Below are positions 805 through 27,258 of a stretch of DNA of 64,000 nucleotides, piece after piece. The notes beneath the pieces are model-generated. The model saw only the letters and a list, made by a program, of their open reading frames with translations. It did no database searches and had not been told where the DNA came from. Source of the stretch: Gammaproteobacteria bacterium (GTDB taxonomy: Bacteria; Pseudomonadota; Gammaproteobacteria; Pseudomonadales; IMCC2047); contig JAJFKB010000010.1 in NCBI GenBank assembly GCA_021773395.1, forward strand, positions 1-64,000. Reading direction: 5' to 3'. The position numbers were made by a program, and so were the translations under genes. Each line of letters starts with the position of its first letter. Positions within the stretch are counted from its first letter, which is position 1.

Positions 805-2838
805 ATGGGAATTGACAATCTGAAAGCTGTATTTCAAAAGGCTGCATCTGAACAGCGTGACCAGCTAACCAAAGAAGAAATAGTGGAGCTATTAACGTCC
901 ACTGGAATTACCGAAGCCGCTCCCACTTCCGCGGAACATCCTCTATTGATAAGCCTCACTAATACGCGCGAATTCGGCATGGTTATCACTGCCGGCAAGG
1001 GCGGTGACAATGTTGAACTTTACGCCTCCAGCTGCCGAAAAGGTCAGGCCTTTATTTCAGCAGCCACTCAAATGACCACGGCTGAAGAATTCTTCACTCT
1101 TTTTAAGCAAACGTTAGTCTATAAAGAATCCTCATCCTTTAATGACCAGCAACTGACGACCTTTTTCAGCGAACTTATCGCTATTGCCAACCAATTTTCG
1201 CCCACTAACCCGGATGCGGAATTTGTCATTGAAGAGCTGGAATTGAATCCGGTATTTTTAACCAACAATGCACTTTCAGTGACGGCTGGGCTCTGCAAGT
1301 TTGGCAAGCCAAAACCCGTTCCAGCAAAGAGACCCATCCAAAAAATCCGCAACATGCTACACCCTGAATCCATTGGAATAATTGGGGTATCTGCTACTAA
1401 AATGAATTTCGGTCGCATTATTCTAAAAAATCTGCTGGATAGCGGCTATAGCCCCGAAAAAATGTACATTGTGCGACCAGGGGAAACCGAAATTGACGGC
1501 GTTAGGTGTATTGACAGCCTGGAAAACCTGGATCATAAACTTGATCTATTTATTGTTGCCGTAGGTGCAGACGCTGTTTTTGATATGGTTGATGACATTA
1601 TTGCCACCGACGCCGCGGAATCGGTCATGCTCATTCCTGGCGGACTTGGAGAAACCGAGGCCAGCCGAGAGCAGGCTGCCGTCATGGCTCAGAAAATGAA
1701 TGAGGCCCACAGACATGGCGACGGCGGACCTATTTTCCTGGGCGGAAACTGTCTGGGTATTGTTTCCCACCCCGGCACTTATGACTCCTGGTTTATTCCC
1801 AAATTCAAACTCCCAAAACCACAAAAAAAGGCACTGCGAAATTCAGCACTGTTAAGTCAAAGCGGCGCTTTTATGATTACCAGGATCAGCCAGAATCCGT
1901 GGTTTGACCCGAACTACATGATAGCGCTGGGCAACCAGAATGATCTCACACACAGCGACATGGTGAACTACTTTTCCGATAACCCTGAAATTGATCTCAT
2001 CGGTGTCTATATCGAGGGCTTCAAAGAGCTGGATGGAATCGCTTTTGCGGAAGCCGTTCGTCGCGCCATCCTTAACGACAAGCAGGTTGTGGTCTATAAA
2101 GCAGGGCAATCTGAACCAGGACAAAATGCAGCGCTAGGGCATACGGCTTCTATCGCTGGTGACTACGATATCTGTGAAACCGTGCTGCGCCAGTCCGGCG
2201 CCATTGTTGCAGGTAATTTTGGCGAATTTAATGATCTTTTTTATGTGGCCGACACTATGCACAACAAGGTTATTGGCGGCAATCGTTTAGGCGCTGTCAG
2301 TGGAGCCGGTTTTGAAACGGTCGGCATGGCCGACAGCATACATTCAGAGACTTTTTCTCTTGAAATGGGAACGCTAGAAGCACATACCCATGAGCGCCTG
2401 AGTGAAATTCTAAAGGCCAAACGTCTGGACGCATTGATGGAAATCCGCAACCCTTTTGACATTAACCCCGGCGCAGACGATGAAGCCCATGTACTTTGCA
2501 CCCAGGCTTTCGCAGAAGATCCGAATATTGATGCGGTTGTTGTGGGTCTGGATCCATTATCACCCATGATGCGAACACTGGTAGAAAGCCCCAGGCCCGG
2601 GTTCGACATTAATAGCGAAGACAGTGTCACCCAGCAACTCCCTAAACTGGTTGACGCTATAGACAAACCGATCATCGGGATCGTTGATGGTGGCTCACTC
2701 TATGACCCAATGATTGAAATGCTTAAGGATAAAGGTGTATGCACGTTTCGGTCCTGCGACCAGGGCGTAAAGGCCTTAGCTAAATATATTGAAGGGCGAC
2801 TAAATAGTAATGAAATCAAGCGAAGACACGGGTCGTAA
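805..2838 (+). CDS. NDP-forming acyl-CoA ligase-like protein with reduced ATP-grasp half
   Basis: The 677-residue protein belongs to the ADP-forming acetyl/acyl-CoA synthetase (ACD) superfamily. Residues about 180-300 are the CoA-binding Rossmann domain (IGIIGVSATKMNFGR). Residues about 345-500 are a succinyl-CoA-ligase-like domain with SQSGA at 351-355 and the phosphohistidine motif GHTASIAG (His446). A further flavodoxin-like domain follows. Residues 1-165 look like the start and end of an ATP-grasp domain (LTKEEIVELL near 21; FGMVITAGKGG at 57-67; EELELNP at 143-149), but the central lobe carrying the ATP-binding lysine is not visible. The intact family couples acyl-CoA formation to ATP via a phosphohistidine. 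Here a partner subunit or another role is possible. The start follows GGAGG with a rather long spacer of 11 bases. The substrate is unknown; aromatic or dicarboxylic acids are inferred only from context. Confidence 0.75.
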   Translation: MGIDNLKAVFQKAASEQRDQLTKEEIVELLTSTGITEAAPTSAEHPLLISLTNTREFGMVITAGKGGDNVELYASSCRKGQAFISAATQMTTAEEFFTLFKQTLVYKESSSFNDQQLTTFFSELIAIANQFSPTNPDAEFVIEELELNPVFLTNNALSVTAGLCKFGKPKPVPAKRPIQKIRNMLHPESIGIIGVSATKMNFGRIILKNLLDSGYSPEKMYIVRPGETEIDGVRCIDSLENLDHKLDLFIVAVGADAVFDMVDDIIATDAAESVMLIPGGLGETEASREQAAVMAQKMNEAHRHGDGGPIFLGGNCLGIVSHPGTYDSWFIPKFKLPKPQKKALRNSALLSQSGAFMITRISQNPWFDPNYMIALGNQNDLTHSDMVNYFSDNPEIDLIGVYIEGFKELDGIAFAEAVRRAILNDKQVVVYKAGQSEPGQNAALGHTASIAGDYDICETVLRQSGAIVAGNFGEFNDLFYVADTMHNKVIGGNRLGAVSGAGFETVGMADSIHSETFSLEMGTLEAHTHERLSEILKAKRLDALMEIRNPFDINPGADDEAHVLCTQAFAEDPNIDAVVVGLDPLSPMMRTLVESPRPGFDINSEDSVTQQLPKLVDAIDKPIIGIVDGGSLYDPMIEMLKDKGVCTFRSCDQGVKALAKYIEGRLNSNEIKRRHGS

Positions 2839-6180: not shown

Positions 6181-7146
6181 TCAGAGCAATTGATTAATCA
6201 GCCGCCGCGCGACGTTCACTACCACTTTGCTTCGATATGACCCCGGCGTAAAGGTACTACGCATTGGTTTGGATTGCACTCTAACCAGTTTCACAAGCGC
6301 TTTGATCGTCTCCTCATCAACAGGCTTTCCGAAACTCTCTTCAGCCCCTTCGACAAAGACGGGACGCGAGTTAGTGCCCGTCAACGCTATGCGAATATCC
6401 TCGAGTTTTCCAGCATTACTCTTGGCAGCAACGGCAACACCTACCAGCGGGAAATCTACGCCACCACGCACTCTGACTTTACGATACTCTGTATTATAGC
6501 CATCCAGCCTTTCAATAATGACTGCGACTAGAAGCTCTCCCGGATTAAGCAGTAAATAATTTGCACCATCTTCCTGATACATATCCTTAAGATCAATGAC
6601 GCGCTTGCCTGCCGCAGATACCAGCTCAACTTTCGCACCATACACCATCATCGCTGGTGCCAGGTCGCCACTGTAAGCAGCCCGACAGATGTCGCCCTGT
6701 GGTGCTACGTGACAGATATCCCCACGATATTTCAAACAGTAGTTGTTTGACTTACGCCACCACTCACTCTGGTTATAAAACTGACAACGAGTATCCAGAC
6801 AAAGGTTGCCACCTACTGTTGCAGACTGTCGATGGGTAGTTCCGGCAATAGTCTCAGCCGCTTGAGCCAGCAGCGCATATTGCTTAATCACCAACTCATT
6901 GCTAATCAATTGCTGCAGACTGACGCTGGCACCAATTTTAAGCCCATTCTCCGTTTCTTCTATCTGTTGCATTTCGGAAACTTCAGACAAATCGACCACT
7001 GTACTTGGCGTTTCCAGGCCCCTTCTGAGGTTGGGCACAAAGTCCGTTCCACCGCCTATGTATCGAGCATCAGCTTCTGCACCTAACGCAACGGCCTCTT
7101 CAGCAGTTTTTGGTTGTCTAATTTCGAATTCAGGTAGTAGTTCCAT
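6181..7146 (-). CDS. hcrB: 4-hydroxybenzoyl-CoA reductase, FAD/[4Fe-4S] beta subunit
   Basis: The 321-residue protein is a xanthine-oxidase-family FAD subunit: it has the FAD loop IGGGTD at 30-35 and ATVGGN near 109-114. Its hallmark is an insertion carrying Cys121, Cys137, Cys145 and Cys154, matching the extra [4Fe-4S] ligands known for HcrB of Thauera and absent from ordinary CoxM-type subunits. With HcrA and HcrC it uses reduced ferredoxin to remove the para-hydroxyl of 4-hydroxybenzoyl-CoA, giving benzoyl-CoA and water. The family length is about 324. The start overlaps the hcrA stop by one base (TAATG), so translation is probably coupled. It is the last gene before the terminator at 6110-6164. 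Confidence 0.93.
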   Translation of the reverse strand: MELLPEFEIRQPKTAEEAVALGAEADARYIGGGTDFVPNLRRGLETPSTVVDLSEVSEMQQIEETENGLKIGASVSLQQLISNELVIKQYALLAQAAETIAGTTHRQSATVGGNLCLDTRCQFYNQSEWWRKSNNYCLKYRGDICHVAPQGDICRAAYSGDLAPAMMVYGAKVELVSAAGKRVIDLKDMYQEDGANYLLLNPGELLVAVIIERLDGYNTEYRKVRVRGGVDFPLVGVAVAAKSNAGKLEDIRIALTGTNSRPVFVEGAEESFGKPVDEETIKALVKLVRVQSKPMRSTFTPGSYRSKVVVNVARRLINQLL

Positions 7147-9500
7147 TAGACAGCCCCCTTCCCGGATTGATTTCGCTTATTCGCCCTTTCCTGCTTAACC
7201 AAAGCGTCTATAACACGATCAGGTGTTATAGGGGTTTCGGTCATTTCGATACCAATTGCATCGCGTACGGCCGATGAAACAGCTGCCAAGACACTGGACA
7301 ACATCCCTTCACTGGCCTCCTTTGCACCAAATGGACCGTTCGCATCAATAGGCTCAATAATTTTTACTTCGATATCCGGGGACTCCATAATGGTTGGGAA
7401 CCGATAATCAAGAAAATTGGCATTCATGTGCATGCCATTTTGGAAACCAGTTTCTTCTGAAATAGCCTGACCCAACCCCATCCAAACACCCCCTTGTACT
7501 TGTCCTTCAACAGACAATGGGTTGATAGCAAACCCACAATCATGGGCGCACCAGATTTTATCAACTGTAACCAGACCAGTATCTTCATCTACAGTCACTT
7601 CAGCAACGGTTGCACCGTAGGAATATCCGGGGGATGAACCTACCGCAGCACCGCGCTGCTTGCCCATACCCTGGAATTCGCGTGGTACAAAATAGGTACC
7701 TTTTGCCGTAATCGTACCGGATCCTATCATTGCTTGATCGACTATATCCTGAAAAGGCACGGCCGTTTCAGGGCTGCCTTTAACTCTATATACCTCACCC
7801 ATACACTCGACGTCTTCGGCAGCGCATTCGAACTTGCTGGCCGCAGCGTCTACCAGTATTTTCTTTAGATTTTTACCGGCATCCACTGCAGCGTTACCAA
7901 CCATCACGGTCACCCTTGAAGAATAGGAACCGTTATCCTTGGGCGTAATCGCACTATCGTTCGCAATGACCCTGAGCCGTCCATAATCCACACCCAGTAT
8001 TTCCGCTACTGATTGCATAATAATGGTGGATGAACCCTGTCCGATATCGGAGGCGCCAGTCAGAATGGTAATGCCACCATCAAAATCCAATTTCAAAATG
8101 ATGGTCGCATGAGGTTCTCCGGTCCAATGTACGGGTCTTCCTGCGCCGCTCACAAAGTGAGAACAGGCGACACCAACGCCCTTACCACGGGGCAACTGCC
8201 GTCGCTTTTCTTTCCAGTTACTGGCCTCTTCAACCCAATCAATGCACTCCGGCAAACCGTAGGATTTTGCCCGGAGTCCGTTAATTGTTTCAAAATTGGG
8301 GGCTAGTAAATTTGCACGCCGCACTTCAATGGGATCCAGGCCTATTTCCTCAGCGAGACTATCGAGCAACGCCTCAAACGCGAAACGAATATTCGTTGTA
8401 CCGTGCCCACGCATCGCACCACAACCTGGATTATTTGTATAAACGCGACGACCGGTGTATTTTACATTCGGGATGTCATAGATCGCGTGCAATAAGGCTC
8501 CGGAATAGAGAATGGTGATAACACCATATCCCGCGTAAGCCCCGCCTCGCTGCAACACTTTTGCTTCACAGGCAGTAATTTTACCGTTTTTCTTAATACC
8601 GATTTTGATACAAACGTCCGTTTCTGGACGACCTTTATGGGTCAGGAATGTCTCTTCGCGAGTCAGCTTCATCCTCACTTTCCCGCCAGCCGCTTTGGCC
8701 AAAAGACAGGCCACAATCTCGAAGTTCAGGGTTTCTGTGCGAGCCCCAAAACCACCACCCACAAAAGGCTTAATCACTCGAATTCGTGAAGAGTCCATCC
8801 CGGTACACTGGGTAACCATCAGGTGCACATAGTATGGCACCTGAGTGACTGACTTTAACGTCAGCAGATCACGCTCTGCGTCATATTCAGCTAAAGACGC
8901 ATGTGGCTCCATATGAGCATGGGTGACTTCGCCACAATGATAGGTCTGCTCAAGCACCAGATCAGCTTCGGCAAAACCCTGTTCTGCATTTCCAAATTCT
9001 TCGTCGACGGCTCTTTCCAAATTGCCTTTGCGCTTCTCGTGAATCAACAACGCATCCGATGCCATTGCGTCTTCCATCGTAAAATAGGCGGGCAATTCTT
9101 TCACTTCAATTTTAATCAGGTCCAGGGCCTGCTGGGCAGTCCTTTCATCGATAGCTGCGACGGCCGCAACGGCATCGCCACGGTATCTCAACTTGCCACG
9201 CGCCAGAGGATATTCATTTTCTGATATAGGCAAAATACCAAAGGGGGCGCCACAATCTTCGCCGGTAATGACCGCCTTAACACCCGCAAGTGCTTTGGCC
9301 TCTGATATGTCAATGTTGACAATTTCGGCATGCGCATAGGGGCTTCTCAAGATAGCACCAACCAGGGCGTCGTCTGCATCCAGATCCGCCGTATATTTTG
9401 CTTGGCCCGATACTTTCTCAACACCGTCAATCAACGGAATACGCGCACCAGCAGCTTTATTCGGTTTTACTTGCATAAGGTCTTGCAGGACTTTGTTCAT
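7146..9500 (-). CDS. hcrA: 4-hydroxybenzoyl-CoA reductase, molybdenum alpha subunit
   Basis: The 784-residue protein is the large molybdopterin-cytosine-dinucleotide subunit of a xanthine-oxidase-family enzyme. The N-terminal part (about 20-130) is the a/b hammerhead domain. Cofactor-binding motifs [18 protein letters not shown] and FGAKEASEG follow in the expected order. Pairing with an HcrB that carries the extra [4Fe-4S] insertion assigns it to 4-hydroxybenzoyl-CoA reductase rather than to CO or nicotinate dehydrogenases. The start overlaps the hcrC stop (ATGA) and its stop overlaps the hcrB start. The enzyme funnels phenolic compounds into the benzoyl-CoA pathway encoded upstream. A few residues more than the roughly 769 usual for the family are seen at the ends. 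Confidence 0.93.
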
Positions 9501-9982
9501 CTGGCTGCTCCCGCTTCCGCAACCGCTTTCACGGATTCCAGGATCTTAACATAGCCAGTGCAACGACATAGATTTCCTTCCAACGCCTTCCTGATCTCTT
9601 CATCCGATGGGTTGGCGTTTTTCCTTAACAGGGCCTCGGAAGCCATTATCACTCCCGGCGTACAAAAACCGCATTGGGTTCCGAGTTTTTCATGGAACAT
9701 TCTCTGTAATGACGATAAACGACCGTTCTCTGATAGAGACTCTACCGTTTCAACTTCCTTGCCATTAACTTTGGAGACTAAAGTAATGCAAGATAGCATG
9801 GGTTTACCATCCACCAGCACAGTACATGCACCACATTCCCCACCATCGCAACCGGTTTTCGTCCCGGTCAGTCGAAGCTCTTCCCGAAGATAATCTATTA
9901 ATAACATGTTCGGCGGCACCACGCTTTCACGCCTCCTTCCATTTACCGTCACTTCGTGCACAGATTTTGAACTTTGTCTCAT
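9497..9982 (-). CDS. hcrC: 4-hydroxybenzoyl-CoA reductase, [2Fe-2S] gamma subunit
   Basis: The 161-residue small subunit carries two [2Fe-2S] clusters. The N-terminal plant-type cluster is bound by Cys45, Cys50, Cys53 and Cys65, and the C-terminal all-helical domain binds the second through Cys104, Cys107, Cys139 and Cys141 (CGFC...CRC). The frame is open to a TTG at 10009, but the ATG at 9982 has GAGAGG nine bases upstream and gives the length known for HcrC of Thauera. The stop overlaps the hcrA start (ATGA). It relays electrons between the FAD subunit and the Mo site. Confidence 0.9.
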
Positions 9983-10115
9983 TTCAGCCATCCTCTCATT
10001 CAACGCCAACCCTCTATGGGGTTTTCAGCAAATTTACTAAGGTTTATCGCACCCCTCCGGGACCCGATAATGGCTTATCGGAATCCCTCCTCTCGGTGCA
10101 TTTACAGTTTGCTGA
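9983..10115. promoter_or_regulatory. hcrC upstream gap with small hairpin
   Basis: This gap between the ferritin-like gene and hcrC contains a 7-bp perfect stem with a four-base loop (CCGATAA/TTATCGG, 10064-10081). No T-run follows, so it looks more like a processing or attenuation hairpin than a terminator. A separate hcr promoter could lie here, but none is obvious. Confidence 0.35.
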
Positions 10116-10645: not shown

Positions 10646-11482
10646 TTACACCTCAAATTGGCCAGTGAAATCATAGGTTTCCGTGGAACTATTATTTTGA
10701 TTTAACTTAAACGGCTCCCTTTCACCGCGGTAAAGAGGACCAATATTAAAACCATCATCAGTCATTAATCGCCGCGCTGCGCGCGCCGGATCAGAAGTCG
10801 CTTCTACCGGTGCTGGACGGACTTTATTTCGCCAATCTTTCTGATCGGGCCGATAGGTCACACAAGGGCTTAGAATTTGTACAAAGGAGAAGCCTGGATG
10901 CTGTATGGCTTCTTCAATCATCGCCGCTGTACCTTTCGGATCCCCGGAAAATGCCCGACCCAAGAAGTTTGCACCTGACGCTAACGCTATAACCAAAGGA
11001 TGGAAAGGACTTACTCCGGTTCCTCCTGGCGTTAATGCACTATCCCAAAAAGGGTCTGTAGTTGGTGAAGCCTGGCCTTTAGTCATACCGTAGACCTGGT
11101 TGTCCATCACGATATAAGTAATGTCCACATTACGACGGCAGGCATGCATAAAATGATTACCACCAATCGAAAAACCGTCTCCGTCACCACCGGTGCAAAT
11201 CACGGTTAACTCAGGGCGAGCGACTTTTAGTCCGGTGGACAGCGCTAAAGATCTCCCATGAACACCGTGAAAGCCATAAGTCGAGGTATACGCGGGAATA
11301 CGGGATGAACAGCCAATACCGGAGATGACGGCAACATCTTCGGGTTTCAGGGCCAGACTGGCCATTGCTTTTGTCAACGCTTGCAAAACTGAATAATCGC
11401 CACAACCAGGGCACCATACAGGTTTCAGTCCAGATTTATAATCTGATGCAACTAACGCGATATCACTTGCTGCTTGGTTCAT
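10646..11482 (-). CDS. korB: 2-oxoacid:ferredoxin oxidoreductase, beta (TPP) subunit
   Basis: The 278-residue protein is the thiamine-diphosphate-binding subunit. It has CPGCGDYS near residue 25, the TPP/Mg motif GDGDGFSIGG near 100, and MDNQVYGMTKGQ after it. Together with KorA it oxidises a 2-oxoacid, most likely 2-oxoglutarate, to the acyl-CoA and reduces ferredoxin. In Thauera aromatica this enzyme is the electron source for benzoyl-CoA reductase, and the gene position here fits that role. The longest frame begins at TTG 11494, but the ATG at 11482 has GGAG eight bases upstream. The gene begins just inside the end of korA. Confidence 0.88.
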   Translation of the reverse strand: MNQAASDIALVASDYKSGLKPVWCPGCGDYSVLQALTKAMASLALKPEDVAVISGIGCSSRIPAYTSTYGFHGVHGRSLALSTGLKVARPELTVICTGGDGDGFSIGGNHFMHACRRNVDITYIVMDNQVYGMTKGQASPTTDPFWDSALTPGGTGVSPFHPLVIALASGANFLGRAFSGDPKGTAAMIEEAIQHPGFSFVQILSPCVTYRPDQKDWRNKVRPAPVEATSDPARAARRLMTDDGFNIGPLYRGEREPFKLNQNNSSTETYDFTGQFEV

Positions 11483-11484
11483 GG

Positions 11485-13215
11485 TTAGCTCCAATTCTTA
11501 ATTTCGTTAACGATTTCACCCGGACGGATGATAATAGGACCAGCCCTGTTGAATGCTTTAGCCTGGCAAGGTAAGTCATACTGGGCCCTTACATACCTGA
11601 AGAACTGCGCTGAGTGCGTTTGCTCAACCACTAGCATTTTCTCAACTCCAGCAAGAGCAGCGGCCATTTTTTCCGGCTGAACCGGCGATAACAGGCGTAT
11701 GGCGATCAATTTCGCATTAATCCCGAACTCACGCAATCTTTCCGCTGCTTCGCGAGCGGCACCAGTGGTCGAGCCCCAGGTTACGATGGCAATATCACCA
11801 TCACCTTCGATAGCTGCCCAATGATCGGCATAATCAAATTCGGTTAACTTGCGCAACCGCTTATCCATTTGCTCAGCATGGTGAGCGTCCTGGGTTGAAG
11901 GGGTGCCGGTTGGACTATGTTCAAGTCCATCAGCAGTATACTGGCCCCCTGGTAACCCGGGTATTGCCATGGGAGAGACACCACTGTCCGTCACTGCGTA
12001 ACGTTCATAGCCCTCTACACCTTCGGTAAGAACTTCTCGTTTTGTGCCAAAATCAATCTCTTCCGGTTTTTCAACGGCCGCTCTCGCCTGCCCCATAAAC
12101 TGATCGGACAGCATAATTGCCGGTGCCTGCAACGACTCAGCTAAATGCACTGACCACTGGGCAGTAAAGAGGCAGTCTTCTACCGCCATCGGCGCAGTCA
12201 CAATGTGTGGCGCATCTCCATGCAAACCATAGATTGCAATGTTTAGATCACTTTGCTCGGATTTAGTAGGAAGACCGGTAGAGGGGCCACCTCGCATAAC
12301 GTTAACAATAACAACCGGGACTTCTGAAGCGACCGCCAACCCGATACTCTCTGTCATTAGCGCGAGTCCTGGTCCAGAAGTCGCCGTCAGCGAGGGAATA
12401 CCACCATAGGAGCCCCCAATGGCCATATTGATGGACGAAAGCTCGTCTTCCGCCTGCACCAAAGATCCACCCAACTTGGGTAAAGCGGACGACATCCACT
12501 CAAGAACCTCTGTCGCGGGAGTAATCGGATAGGCCGCCACAAAACGAATGCCACCTTTGATTGCCCCCCAACCTGCCGCTTCATTACCAGAGATAACCAT
12601 ACGTTCACCGGGTGCTGGCTGTTCAAAGTCAGCTTTCGCCACAACCGGAAGATCGGCTGCAAGTTCACGTCCGAGCTTAATGGTGTCAAGGCTGCTCTGC
12701 ACCGCTTCCTGGCCCTTTCGGCCCAGCTTTTTCTCGAGCATGTCGGACAAAGTACGTTCCGGTAAAGAAACCATCTCAGCAAGAATACCCAGGGCAATCA
12801 TGTTCGGTCGCCCTTGCTTTATTTGCTTGGCGGTCTTCGCAATCGGTAACTGAACGATTTTTGCCCCGGAGCGCGAAATAACCTCTGGGACATCCCCACC
12901 ATCAACGTCGCTGATAATGATGCTGTCCGAGGTTAATGGAATTTCCGCAGCGAATCTCTCTACGTTTTTCCAGTCAATCGCCAGAAGCACATGAAAAAAA
13001 TCATCCGGGCTGGACGTGGGCGCTGTAGTTAAACGCACCATAGCCGCAGCCTCACCACCACGAATTTGAGGGCCCAGCGTTCGCGTAAGCGTGCCAAACC
13101 ATCCCTGTTTTGCCGCCACATCGAACAACAGATTTCCCGTTGTCATTGCACCGGCGCCACCACTACCTGCAACAGCAATGGATACAGACCTTGAACTAGC
13201 TAACTCTTGTGTCAT
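11485..13215 (-). CDS. korA: 2-oxoacid:ferredoxin oxidoreductase, fused gamma-alpha subunit
   Basis: The 576-residue protein begins with a gamma domain (GSGGAGAMTTGNLLF near 16, then LGPQIRGGEAA) of about 180 residues. The pyrimidine-binding alpha domain follows from about residue 205 (GNEAAGWGAIKGG, YPITPATEVLEWM), and a C-terminal transketolase-like domain ends the protein. This gamma-alpha fusion is the KorA form found with two-subunit KorAB enzymes. It carries no ferredoxin domain, so the separate Fdx at 14172 is the plausible acceptor. ATG 13215 is preferred over the adjacent TTG. Specificity for 2-oxoglutarate is inferred from the cluster, not from residues. Confidence 0.88.
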   Translation of the reverse strand: MTQELASSRSVSIAVAGSGGAGAMTTGNLLFDVAAKQGWFGTLTRTLGPQIRGGEAAAMVRLTTAPTSSPDDFFHVLLAIDWKNVERFAAEIPLTSDSIIISDVDGGDVPEVISRSGAKIVQLPIAKTAKQIKQGRPNMIALGILAEMVSLPERTLSDMLEKKLGRKGQEAVQSSLDTIKLGRELAADLPVVAKADFEQPAPGERMVISGNEAAGWGAIKGGIRFVAAYPITPATEVLEWMSSALPKLGGSLVQAEDELSSINMAIGGSYGGIPSLTATSGPGLALMTESIGLAVASEVPVVIVNVMRGGPSTGLPTKSEQSDLNIAIYGLHGDAPHIVTAPMAVEDCLFTAQWSVHLAESLQAPAIMLSDQFMGQARAAVEKPEEIDFGTKREVLTEGVEGYERYAVTDSGVSPMAIPGLPGGQYTADGLEHSPTGTPSTQDAHHAEQMDKRLRKLTEFDYADHWAAIEGDGDIAIVTWGSTTGAAREAAERLREFGINAKLIAIRLLSPVQPEKMAAALAGVEKMLVVEQTHSAQFFRYVRAQYDLPCQAKAFNRAGPIIIRPGEIVNEIKNWS

Positions 13216-13278
13216 CAAATGATGCCTCTGCTCAATATTTCAATTAAACCTTCCAAACCTTCTGTCGGGTGACCCTAT

Positions 13279-14485: not shown

Positions 14486-15316
14486 CTAAGCTGCTTCCTG
14501 TACACGAAGTTTTTCGAAGCGGAAGGCTCCCCAAATAGCCGCCCCGATCGCTCCAGCATATATAGAATCCTCTGTCGAACGCACATCCAGATCCATTTTT
14601 TGCTTCTCTGCACACTCTTTAAAAGCAGCGATTAATCCATCATCCAAAGCCAAACCACCAGTAGCGAATAATACGCCGGATCTAACTTTTAGTGACTTCA
14701 GCATTTTAACAAAACGATCCGCCATGGAAATATGTATTCCTTTTAAAATATTCGGGCCAGAAATACCACGGGACACCATGTTAATTACATCCGTTTCCGC
14801 CAATACCGCGCAAATACTGGAACAGATTTCAGGTTCATCGGCCTGTTGCGATAGTTCGCCGATTTCATCCTGTGCCACACCGAGGTAACGAGCAATGTTT
14901 TCCAGAAACTGGCCGGAGCCCGAAGCACACTGGCTGGTCATTTTGTAGTTAAGTACTTTACCATCTTCATTCATAGTGATGGCGCGACCATTAAGCGCGC
15001 CGATATCACAGACAGCGCGTGCTTCAGGGTCGAGATAAAGCGCACCACGAGCGTGAGTGGTCATGGTGTAAAAGTGCCCGGTACTGAAGGTCACACTTTC
15101 TGCATCACCCGTAGTTGCGCAATAATCTACATCGTCGCGAGTAAAGCCGTTCTTTTCTAGAATTTCATCGTACGACTGTTCCGCTAACGCAAGTGGATCA
15201 CGCTGACGAATGCGGTAGAGGCTCTTATCAATAAATTCAATCTTGTCGCCGTCGACTCGAAACAGTACCGTTTTAACAACACCCGTGCCTACATCTATAC
15301 CTACTGTTAAAGCCAT
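14486..15316 (-). CDS. bcrD: Benzoyl-CoA reductase, ATPase subunit D
   Basis: The 276-residue protein is an ASKHA-fold ATPase. It has phosphate-1 motif GIDVGTGVVKT at 6-16, CDIGALNGRA near 105, SQCASGSGQFLE carrying a cluster-ligand Cys near 130, CSSICAVLAE and phosphate-2-like FATGGLALDDG near 225. It pairs with BcrA around a shared [4Fe-4S] cluster. ATP hydrolysis by the pair drives two low-potential electrons to the BcrBC core. The length matches the Thauera subunit (about 282) rather than the BzdQ type. An 11-base gap separates it from bcrA. Confidence 0.93.
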   Translation of the reverse strand: MALTVGIDVGTGVVKTVLFRVDGDKIEFIDKSLYRIRQRDPLALAEQSYDEILEKNGFTRDDVDYCATTGDAESVTFSTGHFYTMTTHARGALYLDPEARAVCDIGALNGRAITMNEDGKVLNYKMTSQCASGSGQFLENIARYLGVAQDEIGELSQQADEPEICSSICAVLAETDVINMVSRGISGPNILKGIHISMADRFVKMLKSLKVRSGVLFATGGLALDDGLIAAFKECAEKQKMDLDVRSTEDSIYAGAIGAAIWGAFRFEKLRVQEAA

Positions 15317-15327
15317 CTTAATCTCTC

Positions 15328-16641
15328 CTATCCCATTACCGCGCGGTGTGCAAAGCTCGCACCACCCAGCGCGCCGGTGTAAATTGATTCGGTTGAAATA
15401 TTCATGGTGACATCACCATAGTTCGCCTGAACCAGTTTTTTCAGTTCGTCAACCGCAGATTCATTATTCGCCACACCACCGGTAAAGGTAAACTCATCGG
15501 TAATTCCCCCGGAGCGTGCTATAATGGACATCGCACGTAACATGATAGAACGGTGCAGACCGGCCAGAATATCGGCTCGTGATTCACCCAGTGCCAATCG
15601 ATCGCGCAACTCTGCACCCGCGAATACTGTGCAGGTAGAGTTAATACGAGGCACTTTTTTCGCTTTCATGGCAATCGGGCCAAGCTCATGCAGACCGATA
15701 TTCATTTCATCAGCGATATAACCAAGGTAACGACCACAACCAGCAGCACAGCGGTCATTCATCTGGAAGTTTTTCACTACACCATTTTCATCAATCTGAA
15801 TACCTTTGGTATCCTGCCCACCAATATCCAATACCGTACGAGTGCCGTTAAACATGATGTGAGCGCCCATACCGTGACAGAGAATCTCGGAACGAATATG
15901 CTCTTTCGGGAAAGGTAGACGTACCCGGCCATAGCCGGTACCAACCACATAGGTTTCTTCCAGTTCGATATCCAGAGTCGCATTCACCGCGTCACGTAGA
16001 GCCTCTTTATCCACATCAATATTGGGGTTTTCCATCATCAGAAATTCCAGGCCAAGATGGAACTTGCCGCGCAAATCACCTTCCGGCGGACGGTTTTCAA
16101 CGTCAATGATCGCTTTATCGTAAACGTTCATTAGCAGTTCGTAAGAGATTCCGGCTTCTTTGGCCATATCTTCAGCAACACGCATGAAGCGCGAACCGGC
16201 CACATCACGGAAGAAGTCAGATTTACGCTCGGCATTGGGACCATAAATCTCATGAGCGGCATCGGCGATATCTTTAAATATTGCCAGCATAATCTCTCTA
16301 ACCTGGTCTTCAACACCAGCAAAACGCGCGCCTGCGATATTTGAAATACAGGTCTCTTCAAGATCTTTTAGCTGCTCTAAAAACTGTGTTTTGCGGAAGT
16401 TACGTTCCAGGTCAGCCAGCAGTATTTTCATTTTTGCTGCAGCATCCGGGATTTTTGCAATTTCACGTTCCAGCAAAGTAAAGCGCGTATCGATAAACGC
16501 TTCCTGCTTGGCTACCGCAGCAGCCGTATCGTAGTTCGAACGGGAGTTGGTAATCCCGCGCCCTAATACTTCTCTAAACTCATCCATCACTACGGCTTTG
16601 GTAGTGGTCGATCCTAAATCAATTCCAATAAAACACTTCAT
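15328..16641 (-). CDS. bcrA: Benzoyl-CoA reductase, ATPase subunit A
   Basis: The 437-residue protein is the larger ASKHA ATPase. Its N-terminus [16 protein letters not shown] is the phosphate-1 loop. A subfamily-specific helical insertion of about 200 residues follows, then [11 protein letters not shown] near 275, [10 protein letters not shown] with the bridging-cluster cysteines near 300, [10 protein letters not shown] and FTGGVANNE near 400. Related activases occur in 2-hydroxyacyl-CoA dehydratases, but the length, the insertion and the pairing with BcrD indicate class I benzoyl-CoA reductase. With BcrD it hydrolyses two ATP per two electrons transferred. Confidence 0.93.
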
Positions 16642-16659
16642 TCTATGAATCTCCTCTTA

Positions 16660-17964
16660 TCAAGCCGCAGAGCGTTTTTGGTCTACCATCTGGAAGTAAC
16701 TCTCCAAACGGTTCTTAACGTTCGATGGTGAGAAGTAGCGTGGATCAACCAGGTCGGTCTCGACAAAGGCCGCAGGTTTACCAGTACGTTTCTCGATTTC
16801 GTTCATCATCAACAATTGGCCCGCAGAGAAGCTGTTACAACTCTTAATAGAGTTAATCAGCAGACCATCCGCCTCATAGTCATTGAGGTAGTTTTCCAAC
16901 ATCTTGGTACGCGATGGCAGATTCAGGTTGGTATAACAACCCAGACAGTAGTCAGCCAGAGACTCAAGAGGATTGTCAGGATCATGACGGAAGCCCTGCT
17001 CGTAGTTACCACCTACTTTGGTGTAGGAGCTGGCAACCACTACGGCACCTTCGTCGTAGAACATTTTCCAGAACTCACGCATATGGGTGTAGTTCAGCGG
17101 ACCTTCGACGACCAAGCGATATTTTTCTTCGGTCATGACGCCTTCAGGTGTTACCGGGCCTTGTCCTTTTTGAATACGCTCATTCACTTCATCCCAAAGC
17201 GCATCATAATAGGCAGTACATTCAGGCGTGCCACGGAAAGCAGAGAAAGTTGGTCCCACATAGTAAAGACCGCCAAAATAGGAATCGATTGGGGAAGGCT
17301 TTAATTTTGCCGACTCAAGAACCTGCACCAACTTATCTTCAGCCTTGGCTGACTCACGCAGATGCTCGCGCAGGCGGTCAATATCAAACTTAACGCCGCT
17401 GGTTCGTTCCAACGCCGGGATGACCTCTTCCTTCAGCTGCTTAACCACATAGTCACGCATGCTTTGAGTAATTTCACCATCACCCTGATAGGGAACGTGC
17501 AACATTGTGGTGTCACATTTATATTCATGACGTAACAATTCAAACCACTTCATGAAGGTGAAACAACCCGTGTATGAAAGCAGTAACAGATCCGGATCCG
17601 CCAACTTCTTACCAGCAGGGCCGATATTACCTTTACGCATCATGCCCAGGTCAGCTTTTACGTAGGTACAGACGTCCTCGTCCTGGCCGGCACGTTCCGC
17701 CTCCATGACATAGGCGCCAGTCTTTTTCTGCATAGCAGACTGCAGCGCGTTAATTTCCGGGTAGTTACCTACCACGTCGAAACACATAACCAATTCGTTA
17801 AGGTTTCCAGGAACAAAGGTGTAAACCACCTTTTCTTTATGATTCTCTTCGGCTTGAGCAAGTCGCTCGTAGTTGCCGCGGATCATTTCCTTTTGCAGTA
17901 ATTGCGACGCATCTTTCTGTACGTCTTTTGATAGATCAACTGGGGCTTTCTTTTCAGTAGTCAT
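16660..17964 (-). CDS. bcrB: Benzoyl-CoA reductase, catalytic subunit B
   Basis: The 434-residue protein belongs to the HgdB/FldC-like double-cubane-related family and is one half of the substrate- and cluster-binding core. Cysteine positions typical of the family are visible in SYTGCFTFMKW (about 150), DYCLGCYTNLNLPSR (about 340) and SIKSCNSFSAG (about 375). BcrBC binds benzoyl-CoA and reduces the ring to cyclohexa-1,5-diene-1-carbonyl-CoA. The length agrees with Thauera BcrB. Three bases separate it from bcrC. Confidence 0.93.
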   Translation of the reverse strand: MTTEKKAPVDLSKDVQKDASQLLQKEMIRGNYERLAQAEENHKEKVVYTFVPGNLNELVMCFDVVGNYPEINALQSAMQKKTGAYVMEAERAGQDEDVCTYVKADLGMMRKGNIGPAGKKLADPDLLLLSYTGCFTFMKWFELLRHEYKCDTTMLHVPYQGDGEITQSMRDYVVKQLKEEVIPALERTSGVKFDIDRLREHLRESAKAEDKLVQVLESAKLKPSPIDSYFGGLYYVGPTFSAFRGTPECTAYYDALWDEVNERIQKGQGPVTPEGVMTEEKYRLVVEGPLNYTHMREFWKMFYDEGAVVVASSYTKVGGNYEQGFRHDPDNPLESLADYCLGCYTNLNLPSRTKMLENYLNDYEADGLLINSIKSCNSFSAGQLLMMNEIEKRTGKPAAFVETDLVDPRYFSPSNVKNRLESYFQMVDQKRSAA

Positions 17965-17967
17965 AAT

Positions 17968-19128
17968 TTAGCTCCACAACTTAATTGAGTCAGCGAATGT
18001 TCCGGCCTGCTCGCGAATTGGCTGCATCTGACCAGTATTTTCAGCATACTTAAACGCAATATTTGGAATATTGTTGGCATCCAGCACATCCTGCAACATA
18101 GGTCGCTCCAAAAGCGCCGGGTCACAGAAACTTGGGGCGGCAAAGATCACACCCTCAGCACCTGATTTGCGCACAGCCTCTACCAATTGTGCTCCTTTGA
18201 GCTCTTCCGAAGGCTCGTAAGTCGCAGAAGTACGAGTAGAGTGATCGATGAAGCAATCAGACAGGTTTTTCAGCGCGTCGCCTTCTTCCTTCACATCTTC
18301 ACGTAACCAACGATTAACCAGAATAAAGTCATCATCTACGACGTAACAGCCGGACAATTCAATAGAACGAATCAGATTCAATGGCGGTTGCTCACAGAAC
18401 ATGCCATTCATGACCACTTTAGTGTTGTCCTTTTGTGGTCTTTCCACATCACCAATGGCGGCGATATAGTCAGTCATCATTACATTATGCTCTTCAACCG
18501 GTAAAACCTGTCCCGCACGCATTAGCAGGTAAACCTCAGTCACTGGGATATTCCAGGGCTGCTCGATACGCATTGCGTAGAGTTGGTTGATCAATCGACG
18601 GTTGACGTTAAACAATTTGATAGAGGCCAGCAGATCTTCATTGGTCACTTTACGACCGGAAATTCCTTCGAGGCCTTCTAACAGCTCTTGCATTTCCCGG
18701 ATATAGAACCTGCCACCAATCTCTTTATCATAGTTCTGCGGCACATCCATATAACGTACGTAGGTATCTTTCTGGGTCAGCTTCCAAACACCAGACAGGT
18801 TACGTATCACGTCGCAAATACTAGGGAACAGCATGCCTTCAACAAAATCCAGACGCCCCGTCAAAGCCAGCTCGATAGTGGAGCGCGGAATCCGGCAGAT
18901 ATAACTCTGATAGAAAGCATCCCCCTGGATCACTTCCATCTGGTCTCCACCGCCGTAGATACCCAACGGCAACATACCCGCAGCATGAATCAACTCACGA
19001 GGAACATAGATCGGCAAGTGGCCGATCACGTGACGTCCAGGTTCGGCCGCTTTCCAATCACGAGCTGCAGTAAAATTCAAATCTTCATGAATCGCTTCGC
19101 AGCGTTCGATTATTTCTTGTGTACCCAT
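17968..19128 (-). CDS. bcrC: Benzoyl-CoA reductase, catalytic subunit C
   Basis: The 386-residue protein is the second core subunit, also HgdB-like. Cys residues are placed in IYVPRELIHAAGM-type N-terminal context, in the GMFCEQPPLNLIRS segment, in SGCYVVDDDF and in APSFCDPALLE. The frame is open 22 codons further upstream into dch. ATG 19128 (MGTQEIIE) is chosen because it starts just past the dch stop and gives the family length of about 386. It forms the catalytic heterodimer with BcrB. Confidence 0.92.
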   Translation of the reverse strand: MGTQEIIERCEAIHEDLNFTAARDWKAAEPGRHVIGHLPIYVPRELIHAAGMLPLGIYGGGDQMEVIQGDAFYQSYICRIPRSTIELALTGRLDFVEGMLFPSICDVIRNLSGVWKLTQKDTYVRYMDVPQNYDKEIGGRFYIREMQELLEGLEGISGRKVTNEDLLASIKLFNVNRRLINQLYAMRIEQPWNIPVTEVYLLMRAGQVLPVEEHNVMMTDYIAAIGDVERPQKDNTKVVMNGMFCEQPPLNLIRSIELSGCYVVDDDFILVNRWLREDVKEEGDALKNLSDCFIDHSTRTSATYEPSEELKGAQLVEAVRKSGAEGVIFAAPSFCDPALLERPMLQDVLDANNIPNIAFKYAENTGQMQPIREQAGTFADSIKLWS

Positions 19129-19129
19129 A

Positions 19130-19900
19130 TTAACGATGCTCCCAGTTAACGGTGCGTTTTTCAACAAATGCCTGCAAACCCTCGACAGCGTCATGTGTCG
19201 CCATCAACTCCTGCAGGTATAGTGACTCAACTTGATCCAGTTTGGCTTTGATTCGCGCTACAGCGTCAGAGCTAGATGCCCGACACGCAAAGCGCAAAGA
19301 GCTGGCACTACTTCCCAGCAGATGCTTGGCGAACCAGGCTTCTGCTGCAGCGGAAGGATCTTCTGACAACTCATTCACCAAACCAATTCGATATGCTTCG
19401 TTGCCATCAATACTGCGACCAGACCAGAGCAGGTCAGCAGCATGACCACTACCAATACGCTCGGGTAACAGACAAGAAGCGGCGGGAGCGAATACTCCCA
19501 ATTTGATTTCCGGCTGACCCAGTTTTGCTTCTGGTGTAGCGAACAGCAGATCACCGCCACAGACTACTTCAAGACCGCCACCCAGGCATTGCCCCTGAAT
19601 CGCGACTAAAATTGGTACCGGGAAATCCAGCATCTGCTTAATCAATGCATGCAAACTTGCCAGCATCTCGGCACATTGATCAGGCATATGCTCATCGACG
19701 CTTGCGCCGAAACTAAAATGCGAACCTTCCGCATCCAGCAGTACTGCGGTTAACTCTGCAACATTGGCATGTGAATCCAAAGCCGATGAAAGCGCAGCAA
19801 TCATCTCAGCATCCACAATATTTGCCTTGGGTCGCGCTAATGTCAGGCGCAATAAGCGCCCGTCATGCTGCAGTGATACTTTTAAAGGTGAACCGGTCAT
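19130..19900 (-). CDS. dch: Cyclohexa-1,5-diene-1-carbonyl-CoA hydratase
   Basis: The 256-residue crotonase-fold protein has the oxyanion-hole segments FSFGASVDEH (about 63-72) and QGQCLGGGLEVVCGGD (about 104-119), the latter typical of dienoyl-CoA hydratases of the benzoyl-CoA pathway. It adds water to the dienoyl-CoA made by benzoyl-CoA reductase, giving 6-hydroxycyclohex-1-ene-1-carbonyl-CoA. It lies between oah and bcrC with gaps of one to three bases, exactly as in Thauera. A generic enoyl-CoA hydratase would also look like this; the context decides. Confidence 0.9.
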   Translation of the reverse strand: MTGSPLKVSLQHDGRLLRLTLARPKANIVDAEMIAALSSALDSHANVAELTAVLLDAEGSHFSFGASVDEHMPDQCAEMLASLHALIKQMLDFPVPILVAIQGQCLGGGLEVVCGGDLLFATPEAKLGQPEIKLGVFAPAASCLLPERIGSGHAADLLWSGRSIDGNEAYRIGLVNELSEDPSAAAEAWFAKHLLGSSASSLRFACRASSSDAVARIKAKLDQVESLYLQELMATHDAVEGLQAFVEKRTVNWEHR

Positions 19901-25593: not shown

Positions 25594-27258
25594 TTAAACT
25601 TCCAACGACTTGTATTTTTCGCGTAAATGATTGCGTATTGAAACCGCGCTGAAATTCAACACCGCAATAACCGCCACCAATAAAAAGGCCGTCGCGTAAA
25701 CCAATGGTCGTGCCGCTTCGACGTTGGGGCTTTGGAATCCAACATCGTAAATATGAAAGCCAAGATGCATAAATTTCTGATCCAAATGCAAGTAAGGGTA
25801 ATTCCCATCCAGCGGTAATGACGGCGCCAATTTCACCACACCAACCAGCATCAACGGCGCAACTTCACCCGCCGCGCGTGCTACCGCGAGAATTAATCCT
25901 GTCATCATCGCCGGACTGGACATAGGCAGAACCACTCGCCAAAGGGTTTCAAATTTAGTTGCCCCAAGCGCGAGGCTACCTTCACGTACCGATCGTGGAA
26001 TACGCGCCAACCCTTCCTCTGTTGCAACGATGACAACCGGCACTGTGAGTAACGCTAACGTAATAGATGCCCACATTAGCCCCGGCGTGCCGAAAGTTGG
26101 CGAAGGAAAGGCTTCCGGGAAGAAAATTTTGTCGATCTCCTCACCCAGGAAATAAACAAAAAAGCCCAGGCCAAACACGCCGTAAACAATGGAAGGTACA
26201 CCGGCAAGATTGTTCACAGCAATCCGTACGATTCGGGTAATTAATCCTTGTTTAGCGTACTCCCTTAGATAAACAGCTGCCACCACGCCAAAGGGGGTGA
26301 CAAAGATGGACATCAGGATAACCATTAAAACCGTGCCATAAATAGCCGGAAAAATTCCACCCTCGGTATTAGCTTCCCGCGGATCGTCGGCGACAAATTC
26401 CCACAATTTGGCAAAGTAGAAGCCGATCTTAGCAAACAGCTCCATCGTATTAGGCCGATAAGCACGTACTATCTTACCCAGATTGACTTCCACCTGTTTA
26501 CCATCCGCAGTAACCACCATAATACTATCCCGGGTAAACTCTCCGTAAAGCTTGGTGAGTGCTTCCTGCTGCTGTTGGTAGGTAATTTCCAGCTCGGCCT
26601 TTTGTGCTTCAATATCGGCAACTGTTTGAGGGTCGTTCTGCCCTTTTAGTTCTAACTTGCGCTGCTTTAAGCGCAACCTTTCGAATTGATAATTAACGCT
26701 GCCGATATCGGTTTTTTCAATCCGATAAATATCATCATAGATATCCAGCGCTCTGTCGATTCGATCTTGAAAAGTACCCCAGGCTTTACTACCGGAAGCA
26801 ACCTCTTTACCCGACTCATTAACGCTTAACAGGTAACCATATAAATTACCCCACTCACGGCGTTCTATCGCGACTATTTCATCCGGATAGTGCTCTTTAT
26901 CCAACTTTACCCGCAACACCCAGGCAAAATCCGAACCACTAACATCGCGGTTGCCGAGTTTTAGCAGGTAACGCTCCAGGTATTCAACCCCTTCCGCCAC
27001 TGCCACACCGGAGGATCGAATTTGGCTTGCAGGAACCAGCTCCCGCTCCACCACTTCACCGGCAATGCTCAAACGCGAACCGTCTTGACCGACCAGCTCC
27101 GCCTGAATGATTTCGCTCGGCCAAAAATGATTAAGTCCGCGCACCGCAATTAAGCCAAGCAGACCCAGCACCATAATCAGACAAACCGAAACCGCCCCGG
27201 CATTTAACCACACCCAGGGAGCACCGCTTTTAACCCAACCTTTAAACTCTATTTTCAT
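25594..27258 (-). CDS. pstA: Phosphate ABC transporter permease PstA (long form)
   Basis: The 554-residue permease has one N-terminal membrane segment (about 15-40), then a large periplasmic insert of about 220 residues with a coiled-coil-like Lys/Gln/Glu-rich part, then the six-helix BPD core from about residue 290, including the EAA loop region [20 protein letters not shown]. The long form is common in Pseudomonas-like gammaproteobacteria, against about 296 residues in E. coli. It lies between pstC and pstB. Confidence 0.92.

Follow-up and report, generated by a model that had tools for sequence, protein, structure and literature searches.

What does an acyl-CoA ligase-like protein do once it has lost the part that should bind ATP? 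The question is raised by the gene at positions 805-2838 (+ strand; 677 residues) of the 64,000-nucleotide stretch analysed here, referred to below as the window, which forms the start of contig JAJFKB010000010.1 of a gammaproteobacterial assembly. A sequence-only reading of the window had described the product as lacking the ATP-binding lobe of its ATP-grasp half and had suggested that it relies on a partner kinase or acts without ATP, perhaps in activating aromatic or dicarboxylic acids. As far as its sequence tells, the protein is a relative of the ADP-forming acyl-CoA synthetases by descent and not such a ligase by function; it belongs to a truncated family, T, whose association with the genes of anaerobic arylacetate alpha-oxidation (Pad) is well supported, and it most likely works without ATP, through an acyl phosphate and a phosphohistidine.

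The open reading frame and its motifs lie where that reading had placed them, with LTKEEIVELL at residues 21-30, FGMVITAGKGG at 57-67, EELELNP at 143-149 and the phosphohistidine, His446, inside GHTASIAG. Along the chain (all coordinates on the + strand), the first ATP-grasp helix is kept (residues 21-31, positions 865-897; helix 23-31 in the structure model) and is followed by a short, variable linker (residues ~32-46, positions 898-942) and then by the remainder of subdomain 4 (residues 47-157, positions 943-1275), which evolves fast among T forms and carries the Mg/ATP motif EELELNP (positions 1231-1251), present in the window protein and eroded in most T forms. Full-length relatives have, in place of the linker, subdomain 3, the lid that bears the HK motif; in T this motif, which we take to hold the counterpart, in the ACD family, of the second histidine in the lid of the Nitrosopumilus 4-hydroxybutyryl-CoA synthetase, has gone together with the lobe. 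The loss claimed by the sequence-only reading is borne out by the Pfam model ATP-grasp_5, whose match is confined to profile positions 102-212 of 221 and falls slightly short of the cut-off (27.0 bits against 27.6), and by the structure model, in which the lid subdomain is absent. In the Nitrosopumilus enzyme, according to passages of PMC11494057, subdomain 4 is interrupted by subdomain 3, which forms a lid, and the histidine of this lid is the first to take the phosphate from ATP. The domains that follow are intact, as had also been claimed: the CoA-binding domain (subdomain 1, positions 1357-1794, from Pfam), the Succ_CoA_lig domain (subdomain 2, positions 1837-2250) with Glu404 (2014-2016), Lys432 and His446 (2140-2142), and the C-terminal ligase-CoA domain (subdomain 5, positions 2272-2814, from alignment to ACD1 alpha, 4xym). 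CoA_binding_2 (residues 189-319) and Succ_CoA_lig (residues 346-479) both exceed the Pfam cut-offs, and the same Pfam scan of the window protein found neither a CoA-transferase domain nor an acetyltransferase domain, such as the additional GNAT domain of Pat/PatZ proteins.

Could the gap be an artefact? A wrong start codon cannot account for it, because the helix preceding the gap is present, and an assembly error can be dismissed because the truncated form recurs in a congener (P0002; 76% identical to the window protein by local and 73% by global alignment) and, the congener's included, in 42 fetched loci, which also disposes of a frameshift. The window genome itself encodes, on another contig, a full-length paralogue (P0003; 812 residues, 60% identical to the window protein), which ATP-grasp_5 matches in two pieces from position 5 to 217 and which has HKTEAGG in the region missing from T. 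The missing lobe was not found near T as a separate gene either; besides tandem full-length copies in five genomes, the T loci gave only one weak match (E 6e-4), in L076. The gene concerned (L076:4818-7520), 1 kb downstream of T, is PatZ-like by eye, with an ATP-grasp region and an acetyltransferase-like tail. A candidate for a still shorter T form, the second gene of L178, proved to be a full-length copy with a broken frame.

With a three-sequence alignment as the query, 137 relatives were found among 84,980 species genomes, and 80 of them were retained; these, with one locus from a scan of the window's class, make up the family counted here, namely 42 loci with the T form and 39 with a full-length form, F, only. 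One locus first scored as T (L114, cut by a contig end) was reassigned to F, and L043, the same locus as P0002, was counted once. The T form spans alpha-, beta- and gammaproteobacteria, its hosts including Motiliproteus, Sedimenticola, Sulfuritalea and other Rhodocyclales, metagenome-assembled genomes (MAGs) of Burkholderiales, Terasakiella and Paramagnetospirillum; to judge by record titles, F forms occur mostly in Desulfobacterota of the sulfate-reducer type, plus a betaproteobacterial set. T and F adjoin in 5 of the 42 T genomes (L047, L055, L058, L070 and the genome of L051), and with the paralogue as the query no further full-length copy was found at E<=1e-100 in the remaining 37, many of which are incomplete MAGs. 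One MAG, G430, has two such tandems, F being cut by a contig end in one (L051:10040-10760) and lying in a broken frame in the other (L178:11760-14265). A tree built from 41 of the 91 rows with free topology placed full-length forms inside T, with three changes; a single T clade was not rejected (approximately unbiased test, p 0.37), and the lobe may have been lost once or more than once. A plasmid search with T gave no match, and one with PadB a single match, at 27%.

What has been lost and what has been kept is clearest from a residue comparison of 42 T with 42 F sequences, from which two sequences cut by contig ends (L114 and L120) and two partial ones (L100 and the F copy of L058) were omitted. 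Following our own comparison with the superfamily, we presume that E144, E146 and N148 serve Mg/ATP binding and assign Glu404 and the DY at the end of the swinging loop their customary roles. E144 is present in only 2 of the 42 T sequences (the window protein and L123), E146 in 31 and N148 in 32, whereas all three are found in every F sequence; likewise, the loop end D453/Y454 reads DY throughout F, but D is kept in only 17 and Y in only 3 of the T sequences. His446, Thr447, Glu404 and Lys432, on the other hand, are invariant in both sets, and 69 positions between residues 175 and 669, His446 and Glu404 among them, are invariant across all 84 sequences. Among pairs that are 60-65% identical elsewhere, the ATP-grasp half is 76% identical in F (106 pairs) but 41% in T (147 pairs), so that it is more conserved than the remaining protein in the former and less conserved in the latter. 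The window protein and its congener show the same gradient, with 85% identity in the active-site domains, 54% in the leftover ATP-grasp half and 15% in the N-terminal 46 residues; as synonymous change is saturated, no dN/dS figure was used. The acyl/CoA/phosphohistidine site of T is thus under strong constraint, and the loss of ATP use in the T family, including the absence of an ATP site of its own that the sequence-only reading had proposed, is well supported.

In which pathway, then, does this half-site operate? The neighbours of T comprise a molybdopterin oxidoreductase of ~910-940 residues, an iron-sulfur protein and a DmsC-like anchor, a set that we take to have the make-up of PadB, PadC and PadD. 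None of these three matched a curated model of its own, and they are named by position, by domains and by the pathway as outlined in passages of PMC5109826. One locus read closely, L179, contains T, a FlK-type thioesterase, a phenylacetate-CoA ligase (PaaK-type, on the other strand), PadB, PadC and PadD and then PadE, PadG, PadH and PadI; the ligase and the last four all exceed NCBIfam cut-offs, and no match to PadF was noted, no separate search having been aimed at it. The survey of gene neighbourhoods that the sequence-only reading had proposed bears this out across the family. Of the 42 T loci, 16 of which span less than 12 kb, 27 have a padB-like gene within reach, 31 a FlK-type thioesterase gene and 18 PaaX; the corresponding numbers for the 39 F-only loci are 3, 1 and 0. 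In whole-genome searches PadB was found at E<=1e-200 in 37 of the 43 T-carrying genomes; among the six that remain, pieces of PadB lie at contig ends in the window genome and in four MAGs, and L066, a 3.7-kb contig, has none. Among 369 genomes sampled evenly from the window's class, in many of which only the best two or three candidates were scored, PadB occurs in eight (E<=1e-150) and T in two, a third match of the T search being a full-length relative at 30% identity; PadB accompanies T in both, in the window genome in the form of a fragment. T thus travels with the Pad pathway.

Two further genes recur around T. The FlK-type gene (fluoroacetyl-CoA thioesterase family; for example L070:10064-10465) is a candidate arylglyoxylyl-CoA thioesterase, and it also lies beside padB at L171 and L174, in genomes with no T match. 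An aldehyde ferredoxin oxidoreductase gene, presumably of the tungsten type, is near T in 7 of the 42 loci (such as L044:5151-7472, L045:2329-4767 and L062:955-3306) and would fit the oxidation of phenylacetaldehyde.

Action without ATP, one of the options offered by the sequence-only reading, is a serious possibility. In the parent enzymes, acid, CoA and ATP react by way of a phosphohistidine and an activated acyl group, as described in part of PMC11494057, and the DddX route passes through an acyl phosphate, according to passages of PMC8163506. T would run the nucleotide-free half of this parent reaction: an acyl-CoA and phosphate would give an acyl phosphate and CoA; the phosphate would pass to His446 with release of the acid; and phospho-His446 would then phosphorylate a second acid, whose acyl phosphate CoA would convert to the thioester. 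With two acids as alike as phenylacetate and phenylglyoxylate, the summed half-reactions would amount to CoA transfer, and T would in net terms act as a CoA transferase that uses phosphate catalytically. In its most specific form, arylglyoxylyl-CoA, the expected product of PadBCD, would react with arylacetate to give arylglyoxylate and arylacetyl-CoA, the substrate of PadBCD, the thioester being reused rather than hydrolysed and rebuilt with ATP. Because the Pad pathway makes phenylglyoxylyl-CoA and needs phenylacetyl-CoA, such a transfer would save the costs of ligation. We tentatively favour this view of T, an ATP-free offshoot of the ADP-forming acyl-CoA synthetases that transfers CoA through its phosphohistidine, with arylglyoxylyl-CoA to arylacetate as the most specific case, while giving it somewhat less than an even chance; that T is moreover the founding member of a novel class of CoA transferases, in which an ATP-less ligase site with a one-histidine phosphate shuttle recycles the arylglyoxylyl-CoA thioester onto arylacetate, we consider rather doubtful.

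Several observations weigh against CoA transfer, which we deduce from the anatomy of the protein. Phenylglyoxylyl-CoA is described as being hydrolysed in passages of PMC9765128, and the thioesterase gene near so many T loci fits plain thioester hydrolysis. A phenylacetate-CoA ligase (TIGR02155, E<=1e-100) occurs in 37 of the 43 T genomes, in 32 of them over the cut-off, so T is usually not the sole route to arylacetyl-CoA, although a CoA-transfer loop would itself need a starter. Seven of the 369 class genomes, two of them less than 90% complete, have padB without a T match, so that the pathway does not depend on T in every genome. In the window protein both EELELNP and DY survive, and its ATP half is among the least eroded. 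The tandems of T and F in five genomes, finally, could mean a two-subunit enzyme.

This last point leads to the partner kinase of the sequence-only reading. T could be the acyl/CoA subunit of a two-part ADP-forming arylacetate-CoA ligase, with a full-length paralogue or another ATP-grasp protein phosphorylating His446 in trans, an arrangement with a parallel in the archaeal ACD1, whose alpha and beta chains are separate (passages of PMC8163506). The window genome does have a full-length paralogue, although on a different contig, but ATP-grasp_5 finds there only sucC (named from sequence), this paralogue and T itself; in the other 37 T genomes, many of them incomplete MAGs, no full-length copy was seen at E<=1e-100, the loci, 16 of which span less than 12 kb, gave nothing beyond the tandem copies and the weak match in L076, and the loop end that all F sequences keep is lost in most of T. 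We therefore regard such a two-part ligase as unlikely overall, and the kinase partner as weakened but alive where T and F adjoin. A simpler use of the same intact half-site, equally in keeping with its position among pad genes, would be to split the thioester only, T acting as a phosphate-dependent acyltransferase or as a thioesterase that yields an acyl phosphate or, after hydrolysis of the phosphohistidine, the free acid, and so drives PadBCD forward; with a FlK-type thioesterase gene already at hand in most T loci, we find this fairly improbable.

The complete loss of one active site might also mean that T has no catalytic role and instead binds acyl-CoA as a scaffold or sensor through which the Pad enzymes are tuned. 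The 69 invariant positions, His446 and Glu404 included, are not what would be expected of a binding protein, which makes this quite improbable. At the other extreme, T might be an ordinary one-protein ADP-forming ligase with an ATP site rebuilt in some unrecognized way, a view to which the EELELNP of the window protein lends itself; with no lid in the structure model and the Mg/ATP residues eroded across the T family, it is highly improbable.

The surroundings of T in the window bear on which acid it might handle. At the contig end lies a padB-like gene for the molybdopterin subunit, divergent from T and cut off after its first 81 codons (positions 1-243, - strand); over the stretch that matched, it shares 86% identity with its counterpart in the congener. 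Across the intergenic region (244-804), which has the same divergent order in L043, padB and T may share control. A second padB start at the end of contig C3 (L184 17518-17760) is the same in 242 of 243 bases, and the near-identical starts at two contig ends indicate that the genome probably has two padB copies, with the assembly broken in their shared part. On the other side of T, beyond two genes of the GGDEF type (by eye), come the 4-hydroxybenzoyl-CoA reductase genes beta, alpha and gamma (6181-10009, - strand; alpha well over the cut-off, beta just over and gamma just under), the beta and alpha genes of a 2-oxoacid:acceptor oxidoreductase (10646-13218, - strand; alpha over the cut-off of TIGR03710, beta by eye) and subunits D, A, B and C of an ATP-dependent type benzoyl-CoA reductase (14486-19194, - strand; all four over the cut-off). 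In the congener, T has padB on one side and the 4-hydroxybenzoyl-CoA reductase beta gene as its direct neighbour on the other. The same gene run there includes a 2-oxoacid oxidoreductase that resembles PorA and only weakly PadG (240 bits against a cut-off of 700, for a partial gene); because of this weak likeness, its substrate may be another arylglyoxylate. With hcr genes as neighbours, 4-hydroxyphenylacetate is a natural guess for the acid in the window strain.

Activation of benzoate or of a dicarboxylate, the role suggested by the sequence-only reading, finds no support, as the genome has its own benzoate-CoA ligase and the relatives of T sit with padBCD-type genes, in one locus together with padE, padG, padH and padI. 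That reading was right in that no AMP-forming benzoate-CoA ligase lies within the window (search with TIGR02262), but not for the genome, where contig C10 encodes one that scores 636 bits with this model, for which the cut-off is 375. A phenylacetate-CoA ligase lies at C26:180897, within what appears by eye to be a paa-type group; with these two enzymes present, T has no need to activate benzoate and cannot be the genome's sole aromatic acid ligase. The paralogue P0003 has a setting unlike that of T (L185:5876-17741, contig C2), with hydantoinase/ketone-carboxylase-like, thiolase-like and acyl-CoA-ligase-like genes nearby (by eye). Elsewhere in the window, positions 25594-27258 encode a long PstA-type phosphate ABC transporter permease, with some 280 residues before the matched part.

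The T family indicates that an ATP-driven ligase can shed the half that supplies its energy and yet stay under strong selection, which helps to separate the two half-reactions of the class. If CoA transfer is indeed its reaction, phenylacetate and 4-hydroxyphenylacetate would be oxidized anaerobically without ATP being spent in each round of activation, which would shift the energetics of anaerobic aromatic degradation and add a new mechanism of CoA transfer. T together with padB makes a marker, and annotation could mistake T for an ordinary ligase; hosts other than MAGs in which it could be tested include Sedimenticola hydrogenitrophicus, Motiliproteus, Terasakiella and Paramagnetospirillum kuznetsovii. 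In the open-licence literature, outside which most subscription journals lie, we found no account of an acyl-CoA synthetase without its ATP lobe or of the T gene in pad clusters, a silence that is weak evidence of novelty.

How does T compare with known systems? The classical CoA transferases of families I-III catalyse the net reaction proposed here, but T has no domain of theirs, and its intermediates would be a phosphohistidine and an acyl phosphate. The F forms, P0003 included, are 45-60% identical to it over the length of T, with the same domain order and the same phosphohistidine; unlike T, they have subdomain 3 with HK(T/S)(D/E) and a full Mg motif, and where they occur alone they are seldom found with padB-like genes (3 of 39 loci). 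The ADP-forming 3-hydroxypropionyl-CoA synthetase of Nitrosopumilus maritimus (PDB 9y43) has a whole ATP-grasp, whereas T, without subdomain 3, matches the family model only from position 119. In Ca. Korarchaeum cryptofilum, the ATP-grasp missing from ACD1 alpha (PDB 4xym) is carried by a separate beta subunit; beside T there are only the tandem full-length copies of 5 of the 42 genomes. The part that T shares with the protein acetyltransferases Pat/PatZ matches 9it0, but their GNAT domain is not in T. DddX, the ATP-dependent dimethylsulfoniopropionate (DMSP) lyase (PDB 7cm9), belongs to the same superfamily and has had its chemistry changed after the step of CoA ligation, as described in passages of PMC8163506; unlike T, however, it binds and needs ATP.
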